A stretch of DNA of 64,000 nt, from the NCBI RefSeq assembly GCF_000340475.1, contig NZ_CM001792.1, forward strand, positions 802,132-866,131. The letters run 5' to 3'. The translations under genes and the position numbers were made by a program. Every line of letters starts with the position of its first letter. The stretch's first letter is position 1. This DNA is from Oceanobacillus kimchii X50 (GTDB lineage Bacteria > Bacillota > Bacilli > Bacillales > Amphibacillaceae). Below, piece by piece: positions 35,789-60,916 of this stretch. The notes under the pieces are model-generated. The model had not been told where the DNA came from, did not search any database, and saw only the letters and a program-made list of their open reading frames with translations.

Positions 35789-35807
35789 AATCTTAAATAT
35801 TACATCG

Positions 35808-36051
35808 TCGATGACAAAGAGAGTAATTGCTGTAGCGTGCACAGCGAACTAGGGGAAGTGAGAGCCTAGTCATTAAGCAGTAATGAACCGCACTTTGGAG
35901 ACTCTTGTTCGAAAAATTGGAGTAGAATAAGACGGGGATGACCTCGTTATCAACTAAAGCGGTAATAATTATTAAATTACAAGTGGAGTGGTACCACGGG
36001 ATTATAGACTCTCGTCTCTTTTTCAAATAGAAAAAGAGGCGAGAGTTTTTT
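35808..36051 (+). ncRNA. T-box riboswitch controlling argS
   Basis: A complete T-box leader. Stem I carries the AGTA/GAA loop-E pair, and the specifier is read as CGC (35889-35891, context GAAC-CGC-A), an arginine codon. The T-box proper AAGTGGAGTGGTACCACGG lies at 35981-35999. The terminator pairs ACTCTCGTCTCTTTTTC (36008-36024) with GAAAAAGAGGCGAGAGT (36030-36046) and ends in six T. Uncharged tRNA(Arg) should stabilise the antiterminator and switch on argS. Confidence 0.9.
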
Positions 36052-41635: not shown

Positions 41636-41682
41636 GTGTATGTCAATGAAAAGAATCGTAAATATATATCCATACAACGAAC

Positions 41683-41765
41683 TACACTTCCCCACGCTAG
41701 TATTATCTAGTTCGGGTTATAAGGGTCAGGCATTGCCTTCTCAGCCATAAAAATAGCACCCCTAG
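41683..41765 (-). ncRNA. TPP riboswitch (THI element)
   Basis: Minus-strand aptamer with the conserved segments in order: GGGGTGC, GGCTGAGA, CCTGACCCTTATAACC, GAACTAGATAATACTAGCG and TGGGGAAG. This is a canonical thiamine pyrophosphate sensor; with the terminator 50 bases downstream it should shut off ykoFEDC when TPP is plentiful. Confidence 0.93.
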
Positions 41766-41848
41766 TGCGTACGATAGAATATGCAGTTTTGTTTATTGTA
41801 GTTTCATCATAAGCAATATTCAATCAAATGTAAACCATTCATTTTATT

Positions 41849-57321: not shown

Positions 57322-57627
57322 ATGGTGAATTTATATAAATTACTTGCAGATCCAACTAGAAAAAAAATACTCTCCCTAACAGCGAAGAGAGAGTATACAC
57401 AAAAAGAACTGGTTTCGTCATTTGACATGAGTCAGCCTGGAATTAAGAAACATATTGATATGTTAATTGATGAAAAATTACTTTTAATAAGAAGGGAGGG
57501 AAAGTACAATTACTATCGTTTAAATCAATCATTGTTTGAAAAAGAAGCAATACAGGCGAAGAAAGAAATTAATCATATACTGAAGTCTAAACTAGATCGT
57601 CTAAACGATTTTTTAGAGGAGGAATAG
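57322..57627 (+). CDS. ArsR-family transcription regulator
   Basis: A 101-aa winged-helix repressor: LYKLLADPTRKKILSLTAKREYTQKELVSSF leads into the recognition helix MSQPGIKKHIDMLIDEKLL and the wing REGKYNYYRLN. Metal-binding Cys residues of ArsR/CadC are absent, so it belongs to the metal-independent group that usually pairs with SRPBCC (AHSA1) proteins, as here. AAAGGAAG lies 12 bases ahead of ATG 57322. The stop is one base before the next start codon. Confidence 0.87.
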   Translation: MVNLYKLLADPTRKKILSLTAKREYTQKELVSSFDMSQPGIKKHIDMLIDEKLLLIRREGKYNYYRLNQSLFEKEAIQAKKEINHILKSKLDRLNDFLEEE

Positions 57628-57628
57628 A

Positions 57629-58316
57629 ATGGAATGGGTTAGTATAGCAAAAAAGGAAATAGTTATAAATACACGTATTGAAAAGGTTTTGGGAAGCAGT
57701 AACGATACCTGAGCTTCGAAATAAATGGGAAACAAGGCAGTGTGAAATTGATTTGCGAAAAGGAGGTAAGATATATTTAGATTATGGTTGGAATGTAACT
57801 TATGAAGGGGTAATTATTGAATTTATAGAAAATGAAAAATTAGTATTAGAAGATGTAGATGGTTTTCATACTACATGGACGCTTCAATCACAGGGAGAAG
57901 GAACGAAAGTCTCCATTGAATACACGGGAAATTGGATTGGTGATCACGGTATTGCAGAAATGGAAAATATGCTTTTTGGAACATTTCAGTTCATGTTAAA
58001 TCTAAAAACTGTAATCGAGGACAATTATGACCAACGTAAGCAGTTCTGGAATAGTTGGTTAGGATTAAATACTCGAACAGAAATAGATCGAATTAAAGTT
58101 GTTCATGTGCATGAAAATACTCCTGCTTCGGGTAAAGTTAAAGAGGGAGACTATATTCATGCTGTAAATGGAGAAGTTGTGAATCATTATGATGGTTGTG
58201 AAATTGCTATAACACATCAGCCGGTGGGAACAAAAATAAAGCTTGATATAGTAAGAAATGATGAAAAAATCAAAGTTACAGCAAACACCATTCCTTTTGG
58301 AACGATAATAAAATAA
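57629..58316 (+). pseudogene. SRPBCC (AHSA1)-PDZ fusion gene with a frameshift
   Basis: From ATG 57629 (RBS AGAGGAGGAA) the frame begins MEWVSIAKKEIVINTRIEKV as in AHSA1 proteins, then goes off frame at the T4 run 57687-57690, which appears to hold one extra T. The other frame continues WEAVTIPELRNKWETR to the end. SRPBCC covers the first 140 or so residues (lipid/ligand-binding fold). The last 80 form a PDZ-like domain (RIKVVHVHENTPASGKVKEGDYIHAVNGE), an unusual fusion. A TTG at 57678 could start a shorter product. Pseudogene, sequencing error and phase variation are all possible. Confidence 0.65.
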
Positions 58317-58379: not shown

Positions 58380-58630
58380 TAATATTAAGAAGTGCGAAGA
58401 TAAGGACATGAATTACTTGGTATAGTTCCCAGAGAAGGAAGAATTGGTGAGAACTTCCTAACTAGTAAAAGTAATTTACCACCTTGGAGTTGTGTTAGGG
58501 TAACAACTAACACCGTTAGCGACGTTATAGCAATTAAGCCAAGAATAGCTATAAGCAGCTGTTCGGAAATTTGGGTGGAACCACGGAAAACACATTTCGT
58601 CCCTTGTTATAGGGAGAATGTGTTTTTTTT
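58380..58630 (+). ncRNA. T-box riboswitch 1 of thrS
   Basis: Complete T-box with specifier ACC (58478-58480, threonine) followed by the conserved A, the T-box sequence ATTTGGGTGGAACCACGG ending at 58586, and a terminator pairing ACACATTTCGTCCCT (58590-58604) with AGGGAGAATGTGT (58611-58623) and eight T. Confidence 0.9.
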
Positions 58631-58735
58631 ACAATTTTTTCTCGCATGTAATAGGTAGCAAGTCTATGTAGCTTAGTCAGACAGGATAAGTAGGGGAAGA
58701 ACAAACCCGCCATTAAATCAAGTATAAATTTATAT

Positions 58736-58977
58736 TAAATGTTGAAGAGGACATGAGAAGCTTTACTACATTTACAGAGAAGGAAGATAGCTGAGAACTT
58801 CCTAATTGTTTGTAAGTTTCTTACCACCTTGGAGTTGTGTTTGGGGTAACAACCAACACCGTGAATGCGACGTTATAGCAATGAAGCCGAGGATAGTTAG
58901 AATAGCTATTCGGAAATTTGGGTGGAACCACGGATAGAACATATTCGTCCCTTGTATAGGGATGGATATGTTTTTTT
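58736..58977 (+). ncRNA. T-box riboswitch 2 of thrS
   Basis: A second full T-box very similar to the first: specifier ACC (58823-58825), T-box ATTTGGGTGGAACCACGG ending at 58932, terminator pairing ACATATTCGTCCCT (58939-58952) with AGGGATGGATATGT (58958-58971) and seven T. Two units in series should give steep, AND-like induction when tRNA(Thr) is uncharged. Confidence 0.9.
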
Positions 58978-59005
58978 ATATATTTAAAAAAAGGAGTGAA
59001 AGAAA

Positions 59006-60916
59006 TTGAATGAGTTCATAGTTATCGAATTAGCAGATAATCAACAAATAAAGGTGGAGAAAGGTACGGCACTTATAGAAGTGGCAAGGAAGATTGCAAC
59101 AAGTTTGGGTAAAAAAGCAATTGCAGGTAATTTCAATGGTTTACCTGTCTCAATAAACGATTTATTAATGGAGTCTGGCAAGCTAGAAATCATTAGCATC
59201 GATTCAAATGAAGGCTTATCCGCTATAAGACAAACAGCAGCACGTGTATTCATCCATGCAATACAAAGAGTATTTGGCGATGCAAATTTAGGAGTTGGGA
59301 ATCAAACAGAGAATGGATTCTATTATGATTTTCACTCAAATTATCGTATATCAAAAGAAAATTTTAACGTTATTGAAGAAGAAATGAAAAAGATTATTTC
59401 CGAAGATATCCCGATTGTCGCAAAATTGCTCTCACGTCAGGAAGCAATTCAACTATTTGAATCATATAATCAAAGTTACAAAGTGGAACTTATAAATGAG
59501 TATAAACAAGATATGGTAAGTGTGTATCGACAAGGACAATTTGTTGATATCTTTGAAGGTCCTCATCTTCCTTCTACAGGTTGGTTAAAAGCATATAAGC
59601 TTTTAGAAGTATCCGGAGTTTATTGGAAAGGAGAAGATACAAATGATGTTTTGCAACGAGTATATGGTATTGCCTTTCGTAACAACAAAGAATTAAATGA
59701 ACATTTAAAAAGGATAGAAGAAGCTAAGAAAAGAGATCATCGAAATTTAGGCAAACAACTAGAATTATTCATGTTTTCAAATGAAGCGCCAGGTATGCCT
59801 TTTTACTTACCTAAAGGTCAAATAATACGACAAGCTTTAGAAGATTATTCAAGAGAAGTACAGCGTAAATCGGGATATAATGAAGTACGCACACCGTCTA
59901 TGATGAATCAAAAGTTATGGGAAGAATCCGGTCATTGGAATCATTATCATGAAAATATGTATTTTTCGGAAGTAGATAAAACGAACTTTGCTTTAAAACC
60001 GATGAATTGTCCTGGTCATATGCTGATTTTTAAAGATAAATTGTATTCTTATCGTGATCTTCCTGTACGAATCGCAGAATTTGGTCAAGTGCATCGGCAT
60101 GAATTTAGTGGTGCATTAAATGGACTCCTCCGTGTACGAACTTTTTGTCAAGATGACGCTCATATATTTATACGTGAGGATCAGATGGTAGAAGAGATAC
60201 GCAATGTTTTTCGACTAGTTGATGAGGTATATCAAACATTTGGTTTTTCATACAAAGTAGAATTATCTACTCGACCTGAAAAATCACTAGGAAATGATGC
60301 GTTTTGGAACGATTCTGAGGCAGCACTTATACAAGTGCTGGATAGTTTGGGCATAGACTATGTGCTAAACGAAGGGGATGGTGCATTTTATGGCCCAAAA
60401 ATCGACTTCCATATCGAGGATGCTTTACATCGGAGTCATCAATGTGCAACGATTCAACTGGATTATCAAATGCCAGAGAAATTTAATTTGTCTTATATTA
60501 ATGAGAATAATGAGAAAGTGCGACCAGTAGTTATTCATCGCGCAATTTTTGGATCAATTGACCGTTTCTTAGGAATTCTAATCGAGCATTATGCTGGTGC
60601 TTTTCCAACATGGTTAGCTCCGACTCAAGTCAAAATATTACCAGTAGCCGGGGCGCATGAAGAATACGCTAATGCTCTAAAAGAAATTTTGCTTAGTCAC
60701 AATATTCGTGTGGAAATTGATTACCGTAATGAAAAGTTAGGATATAGAATCAGGGAAGCACAGTTAGAAAAACTTCCGTATGTTTTAGTAGTTGGTAATC
60801 AAGAGGTAAATGAAAATATTGTTAATGTAAGAAAATATGGAGAAAAAACATCGGTGATTGTAAATGTTGAGGATTTTATTTCAAAAGTATGTGATGAGAT
60901 AAAGACAAAAAGATAA
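59006..60916 (+). CDS. thrS: Threonyl-tRNA synthetase, paralogue-like with degenerate editing site
   Basis: A 636-aa class II synthetase. TGS domain (1-65), N2 editing-type domain (66-230), catalytic domain and anticodon-binding C-terminus. Zinc ligands in MNCPGHM, CQDDAHIF and VIHRAIFGS are intact, as is motif 2 (VHRHEFSGALNGLLRVR). In the N2 domain the first His of H-x3-H is Arg80 (H84 kept) and the Cys of C-x3-H is Phe183 (H187 kept), so post-transfer editing of Ser-tRNA(Thr) is probably impaired. AAAAGGAGTG (58989-58998) supports TTG 59006. Two T-boxes mark it as an inducible enzyme like thrZ. Confidence 0.94.
   Translation: MNEFIVIELADNQQIKVEKGTALIEVARKIATSLGKKAIAGNFNGLPVSINDLLMESGKLEIISIDSNEGLSAIRQTAARVFIHAIQRVFGDANLGVGNQTENGFYYDFHSNYRISKENFNVIEEEMKKIISEDIPIVAKLLSRQEAIQLFESYNQSYKVELINEYKQDMVSVYRQGQFVDIFEGPHLPSTGWLKAYKLLEVSGVYWKGEDTNDVLQRVYGIAFRNNKELNEHLKRIEEAKKRDHRNLGKQLELFMFSNEAPGMPFYLPKGQIIRQALEDYSREVQRKSGYNEVRTPSMMNQKLWEESGHWNHYHENMYFSEVDKTNFALKPMNCPGHMLIFKDKLYSYRDLPVRIAEFGQVHRHEFSGALNGLLRVRTFCQDDAHIFIREDQMVEEIRNVFRLVDEVYQTFGFSYKVELSTRPEKSLGNDAFWNDSEAALIQVLDSLGIDYVLNEGDGAFYGPKIDFHIEDALHRSHQCATIQLDYQMPEKFNLSYINENNEKVRPVVIHRAIFGSIDRFLGILIEHYAGAFPTWLAPTQVKILPVAGAHEEYANALKEILLSHNIRVEIDYRNEKLGYRIREAQLEKLPYVLVVGNQEVNENIVNVRKYGEKTSVIVNVEDFISKVCDEIKTKR

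Follow-up and report, generated by a model that had tools for sequence, protein, structure and literature searches.

The window analysed here, a stretch of 64,000 nucleotides (64 kb) from Oceanobacillus kimchii X50, encodes a T-box-led second threonyl-tRNA synthetase (ThrRS) of the ThrZ type, in which three of the four residues that form the editing site are replaced. Loss of editing residues recurs among the ThrZ proteins of the order, extending in one clade to removal of the whole editing domain, and every editing-less genome of our tree also holds a housekeeping ThrS. We lean toward reading the window protein as an inducible, synthesis-only backup whose Ser-tRNA(Thr) would be cleared in trans by ThrS, and we consider this reading moderately probable.

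A ThrZ-type synthetase with its synthetic-site residues in place

The gene and the residues discussed below are located as follows.

59006..60916, + strand: thrZ-type second threonyl-tRNA synthetase, 636 aa ("window ThrZ")
59201..59677, + strand: N2 (editing) domain, about residues 66-224
59231..59233, + strand: Gln76, in place of E. coli His73
59243..59245, + strand: Arg80, in place of E. coli His77
59552..59554, + strand: Phe183, in place of E. coli Cys182
59564..59566, + strand: His187, equivalent to E. coli His186 and retained (Tyr in P0001-P0003)
59732..60916, + strand: catalytic core and anticodon-binding domain
60008, 60161 and 60536: C335, H386 and H511, zinc ligands of the synthetic site

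The open reading frame starts with TTG, with GGAG at 58993-58996 upstream as its ribosome-binding site, and its product lies above the cut-offs of the Pfam models TGS, tRNA_SAD, tRNA-synt_2b and HGTP_anticodon and reaches 726 bits with the NCBIfam thrS model (cut-off 384). The N2 domain, whose bounds we take to be those of E. coli ThrRS, has kept its tRNA_SAD sequence match (PF07973, E 5e-8). All three zinc ligands are present in the alignment, and the remaining synthetic-site positions that we checked match those of intact ThrZ; judged by these residues, the synthetic site is intact, as the original prediction had stated. The open reading frame that it described, with its coordinates, its TTG start, Arg80 and Phe183, likewise proved correct when the sequence was re-read. 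On a tree, the window ThrZ falls within a clade of T-box-led second ThrRSs, the branch that splits three ThrS from all ThrZ rows having a support of 100.

Loss of the editing residues

We assigned the editing-site residues from phmmer alignments to 6VU9, S. aureus 1NYQ and E. coli 1QF6 and from two MAFFT alignments, all of which agree that three of the four residues are lost (H73 to Q76, H77 to R80 and C182 to F183), H186 staying as H187. The editing centre is thus broken, as originally claimed, although not at two positions but at three: Gln76 had been overlooked, and Arg80 had been assigned to the first His, whereas the alignments set it against the second (H77) and place Gln76 at the first. 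The nearest relatives of the window ThrZ, P0001 (92% identical), P0002 (88% identical, labelled Oceanobacillus iheyensis) and P0003 (88% identical), read Q, R, Y and Y at these positions, so that all four residues are absent, and HHCH is found in the other 117 of the 120 proteins listed (the best 120 of 7995). Since Gln, Arg and an aromatic third residue (Tyr) are common to P0001-P0003, we do not regard the changes as due to chance.

In E. coli ThrRS, C182A loses editing, and kcat is down 7000-fold in H73A and 70-fold in H186A (PMC4041444). As the positions of both C182 and H73 are changed here, we strongly infer a loss of editing, and the window ThrZ is very likely unable to hydrolyse Ser-tRNA(Thr). 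No alternative residues that would restore the pocket of the window ThrZ were seen by eye in the alignments. His84, which lies one helical turn past Arg80, was considered as a compensating residue and rejected because E. coli also carries His there.

Two T-box leaders precede the gene

58388..58607, + strand: T-box leader 1 (RF00230, 92.5 bits, E 7.8e-21), conserved motif at 58573-58585
58476: putative ACC (Thr) specifier of T-box 1, in TTACCACCT
58585..58630, + strand: terminator hairpin and T-run of T-box 1, T-run at 58623-58630
58733..58955, + strand: T-box leader 2 (RF00230, 81.2 bits, E 6.2e-18), conserved motif at 58920-58932
58821: putative ACC specifier of T-box 2, in TTACCACCT
58936..58977, + strand: terminator hairpin and T-run of T-box 2, T-run at 58971-58977

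The two T-boxes that had been predicted upstream of the gene were recovered with RF00230 matches, conserved motifs, hairpins and T-runs; a default Rfam scan omits both of them because their scores fall just below the 93-bit gathering score of RF00230. The terminator of T-box 1 (58575-58630) folds with an MFE of -21.2 (z -4.75) and that of T-box 2 (58925-58975) with an MFE of -22.5 (z -5.80), both hairpins beating all 200 shuffles in stability. The region that we take to be the specifier position in the window T-boxes reads TTACC, then AC or GC, across ten aligned leaders, consistent with the Thr codon ACC. By these features the window ThrZ gene is T-box-led and would be induced when charged tRNA(Thr) is lacking.

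One T-box stands before thrS of the same genome (locus L067). T-boxes are also found upstream of the ThrZ genes that are reduced to the core (see below): all 17 such loci scanned by covariance model have them, two or three in 16 cases, and a simple motif scan of the core-only loci L081-L110 detected at least one in 29 of 30 and at least two in 27 of 30, the motif scan being stricter than the covariance model (none vs two at L054, none vs one at L066). In G068, which has a shortened ThrZ, a T-box lies directly before the gene.

Editing loss recurs among ThrZ proteins of the order

We searched 397 genomes of the order with a core query, calling a ThrZ-clade gene at E ≤ 1e-140, and found such a gene in 138. 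Forty of these are core-only, with open frames of 400-469 aa; in three of them (G375, G363 and G356) the match contains one stop. Among the core-only loci, 30 were fetched, and in these the core is preceded by 9-81 codons, counted stop to stop, which is too few for TGS and N2. Besides the window ThrZ there are 97 longer ThrZ, of which 87 read HHCH, a count that includes G187, in which HHCH is legible only by crossing a frame break; L171 and L194 each have one stop. The other 10 are degraded: the editing site reads HHCL in G142, QHCE in G133, YQSL in G244 and G219, HQYQ in G374 and G137, KQCL in G310 and EYVL in G215, and the first half of N2 is missing in G068 and G334. Altogether, 51 of the 138 ThrZ-clade genes (40 core-only and 11 degraded, the window included) are without at least one editing residue or without the whole domain. 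Within the genus of the window, a ThrZ-clade copy is present in 9 of 28 genomes, and the other eight copies read HHCH.

Some loci hold rearranged or broken copies. At L165 (G334), the frame upstream of the shortened ThrZ looks like a LysR-type helix-turn-helix start fused in frame to the second N2 half and the core; this may be a gene fusion or a wreck, the LysR label being read from the letters. Broken ThrZ remnants or split frames occur at L068 (G088) and L058 (Paenibacillus plantiphilus).

Independent losses and selection on what remains

On a tree of 133 rows of cores, P0001 and P0002 included (quick IQ-TREE, SH-aLRT only), the editing state changes nine times by parsimony, with five independent pairs on starred branches. 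The count itself is directionless; the intact site of ThrS and of the E. coli enzyme leads us to read the nine changes as losses. The 30 core-only rows form a single clade (99), and the window subclade (100) is placed apart from it, a separation that is also seen on a tree with nine core-only rows; the exact placing of several degraded rows is unsure because of their long branches.

The cores of the core-only genes are under strong purifying selection: 10 of 11 pairs have dN/dS values of 0.028-0.124, and the eleventh is saturated. On the stem of the window subclade, judged by the ratio of N2 to catalytic rates, N2 ran fast: the ratio is 3.17-4.6 in nine pairs, two of which sit at the edge of the baseline; the matching baseline bins, of 85 and 179 pairs, average 2.58 and 2.25 and peak at 3.51 and 3.17. 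Within the subclade, the window ThrZ and P0001-P0003 are 95-96% identical in the catalytic domain and 85-92% identical in N2, which corresponds to ratios of 2.2-3.2 (3.8 for P0001 vs P0002); the seven closest baseline pairs have 2.5-10.3, and one pair of the subclade (3.14) lies just above the 1.7-3.0 of its bin. Because these ratios are about usual for close pairs, N2 is still conserved within the subclade, perhaps because of its contact with the tRNA acceptor stem, which is contacted by N2 of bacterial ThrRS (PMC4267643). In another genus, two degraded pairs have N-part dN/dS values of 0.31, based on very few changes, and 0.25, vs 0.01-0.23 in 14 intact pairs.

A housekeeping ThrS accompanies editing-less ThrZ

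The genome of O. kimchii X50 (3.83 Mb, one contig) has a second, housekeeping ThrS (L067), a possibility raised in the original prediction; aligned with the window ThrZ it is 44-46% identical, and its HHCH editing site is complete. The free-standing trans-editing factor that had also been suggested was not found in this genome by profile searches (E ≤ 0.001): neither PF08915 (archaeal-type ThrRS-ed) nor PF04073 (YbaK-like editing domain) has a match in it, and PF07973 matches only ThrS, AlaRS and the window ThrZ. Among the editors looked for in the genome, ThrS alone remains. The same genome has a ProRS-like frame (L231 1189-2625, near 518 kb) of the short family I type (TIGR00408, 597 bits), which is also T-box-led.

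Across the tree, ThrS is present in all 41 editing-less genomes (30 core-only, 10 degraded and the window), the check having taken in all but 9 of the 40 core-only genomes. By PF07973 search, all 33 genomes examined (O. kimchii and 32 core-only) have a frame of ThrS size, and a ThrS query returned a full-length ThrS in 30 of 30 (10 degraded and 20 core-only), every one of them with HHCH and CHH. HHCH was also read in 19 of 19 aligned Bacillus-type ThrS, two of whose genomes are shared with the 30. By comparison, ThrS was found in 43 of the 87 genomes with intact ThrZ, a tally made with the ThrS query for 75 and by separate checks for 12 more. Its absence from the other 44 is confirmed by the PF07973 search for 8 and rests for 36 on the ThrS query, which could miss a very divergent ThrS. 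The difference in ThrS presence (41/41 vs 43/87) has a Fisher p of 3e-10, a value inflated by kinship; on the tree, there are at most three independent pairs for ThrS presence vs editing loss, and a phylogenetic sign test of this association is without power because the contrasts are too few.

In the 44 genomes, for example G376, G158 and G179, the only ThrRS found is of the ThrZ type with an intact editing site, and ThrZ appears to have displaced ThrS there. All 44 ThrZ that are the sole ThrRS found in their genome have an intact editing site (counting G187 with its frame break).

Proposed division of labour and its alternatives

Under the reading that we prefer, an accumulation of uncharged tRNA(Thr) would cause both T-boxes to be read through, and additional ThrRS would be produced. 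The extra ThrZ would charge tRNA(Thr), yet could not itself hydrolyse Ser-tRNA(Thr), and the housekeeping ThrS with its intact editing site would clear the mischarged tRNA in trans, acting on it after release or inside ThrS-ThrZ heterodimers, the latter route having the low identity of the two proteins (44-46%) against it; a ThrS inhibited in synthesis could likewise remain an editor. In Anabaena, T2 makes Ser-tRNA(Thr), T1 edits in trans even with its synthetic site inactivated, and T1 and T2 heterodimerise (PMC4787780). We propose that the presence of ThrS allows ThrZ to do without its editing half, and that this is why that half has repeatedly been lost. The loss would have taken several routes, namely point substitution (the window subclade and others), cutting of the gene down to its core behind the T-boxes (the core-only clade) and partial deletion.

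The alternative that survives best, and that we still think unlikely, is that inhibitor tolerance is the main reason why ThrZ is retained as a backup, its loss of editing being incidental since expression is rare. The pockets of the two enzymes do differ: ThrS has H336, L381, T479, L480 and G513 (19 of 19), vs mostly G, Q, Q, C and A in ThrZ. At these five positions ThrZ is mostly E. coli-like and the housekeeping ThrS (L067 and 18 others) is non-canonical, which may affect inhibitor sensitivity, and these differences keep the inhibitor idea alive. Furthermore, the second ThrRS ObaO confers immunity to obafluorin, and two of its residues, A316N and L489M, also occur in ThrZ (for ObaO, PMC11252418). 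However, the substitution G463S, which gives resistance to obafluorin and borrelidin (PMC11252418), is absent, Gly being present in 128 of 128 ThrZ where ObaO has the resistance residue Ser463, and none of the seven neighbour proteins scanned points to a biosynthetic cluster. The inhibitor resistance originally suggested thus gains no support from the one resistance residue checked.

It is also conceivable that mistranslation is itself the function. In its general form, which we regard as rather improbable, this would make the editing-less, T-box-induced ThrRS a widespread Bacillus-type class by which the cell would spend serine on threonine codons when threonine is scarce or ThrS is poisoned, the level of mistranslation being set by the ratio of ThrZ to editing-competent ThrS. 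To the related idea of regulated mistranslation, in which ThrZ responds to threonine shortage by deliberately charging tRNA(Thr) with serine, keeping translation going with Ser at Thr codons, we assign a slim chance. The joining of T-boxes, expected to sense uncharged tRNA(Thr), with absent editing would suit it, as would the repeated loss. Yet the full-length ThrS in 41 of 41 editing-less genomes should clear Ser-tRNA(Thr), its editing site is complete in the 30 of 30 genomes checked by residue and in O. kimchii itself, and the synthetic-site positions checked are unchanged vs intact ThrZ.

Highly doubtful, in our estimate, is the reading that the synthetic site itself keeps fidelity, through kinetic discrimination or pre-transfer editing. 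The yeast mitochondrial ThrRS (MST1) resembles the core-only clade in consisting of a core without the editing domain, and it has pre-transfer editing (PMC4267643); it differs in being the mitochondrial enzyme of a eukaryote, and pre-transfer editing alone fails to prevent formation of Ser-tRNA(Thr) (PMC4267643). Compared with intact ThrZ, 14 positions are changed in the core-only clade alone and four in the window ThrZ, but at the thresholds used none is changed both in the window and in most core-only rows.

That ThrZ is a redundant gene decaying toward loss strikes us as very improbable. The fast N2 on the branch to the window subclade, the raised N-part dN/dS of the two degraded pairs elsewhere and the remnants and frame breaks (G088, L058 and G187) would fit such a decay, but the window frame is open, its N2 remains close to that of P0001-P0003 with rates largely in the baseline range, and the core-only genes are held by strong purifying selection.

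Finally, another protein, for example of the AlaX type, might clear Ser-tRNA(Thr) in the core-only genomes, the least probable of these readings. Of 32 core-only genomes, 26 encode an AlaRS-like editing protein of about 400 aa, vs 17 of the 40 comparison genomes, in which ThrZ is intact or missing (Fisher p 0.0015, uncorrected), and the four such SAD proteins taken (L233-L236) all match AlaRS C-terminal and AlaXM models, below the equivalog cut-offs; the enrichment makes this protein a second possible editor in core-only genomes. Nevertheless, it is absent from the O. kimchii genome and from 6 of the 32 core-only genomes, known AlaX proteins act on tRNA(Ala), and the enrichment is not corrected for kinship.

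Relation to known systems

B. subtilis ThrZ is likewise encoded by a second ThrRS gene behind multiple T-boxes. Its editing site, however, is presumably intact, as it is in 87 of the 97 longer relatives surveyed, whereas the window ThrZ has lost its editing residues. A split of synthesis and editing between proteins is also found in the crenarchaeal ThrRS-cat/ThrRS-ed pairs, in which the two functions sit on separate proteins; the O. kimchii genome differs from these in having no match to the archaeal-type ThrRS-ed (PF08915). Several T-boxes in front of thrZ have been described in bacilli (PMC2494555).

With T2 of Anabaena PCC 7120 the window ThrZ would share the character of a conditionally induced second ThrRS with impaired proofreading and an accurate constitutive partner, the activity of the O. 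kimchii ThrS being predicted. The precedent nevertheless differs in cause, since in T2 the motif residues HxxxH and DxCRGPH are retained and a 20-aa insert accompanies the impairment, and it differs in regulation, T2 being induced by zinc deficiency and not through T-boxes; a similar impairment is expected in ThrRSs of Mycoplasma and of high-G+C Gram-positive bacteria with such inserts (PMC4787780). In a 2022 review of duplicated synthetases, the bacterial ThrRS example named is T2 (PMC9437257), and a 2014 paper describes bacterial ThrRSs as containing the N2 editing domain (PMC4267643).

Second ThrRSs, T-box-led thrZ and an impaired inducible ThrRS (T2) are already known. Among the matches listed from the open-licence literature, which consisted mostly of titles and the beginnings of abstracts, we found no account of a core-only or editing-dead bacterial ThrZ. 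Our results suggest that a division of labour between duplicated synthetases, as established for one cyanobacterium, may be widespread, and the ThrZ family offers a natural system for asking when cells tolerate, outsource or use the loss of proofreading. They also call for caution with genes annotated 'threonine--tRNA ligase', which may be error-prone alone.

Other features of the window

At 57630-58316, an AHSA1-like domain is joined to a PDZ domain in a gene whose first codons seem to have a broken reading frame near 57690, and an ArsR-type regulator at 57322-57627 adjoins this gene. The 64-kb window also carries a further T-box at 35802-36022 on the + strand and a TPP riboswitch at 41672-41773 on the - strand.
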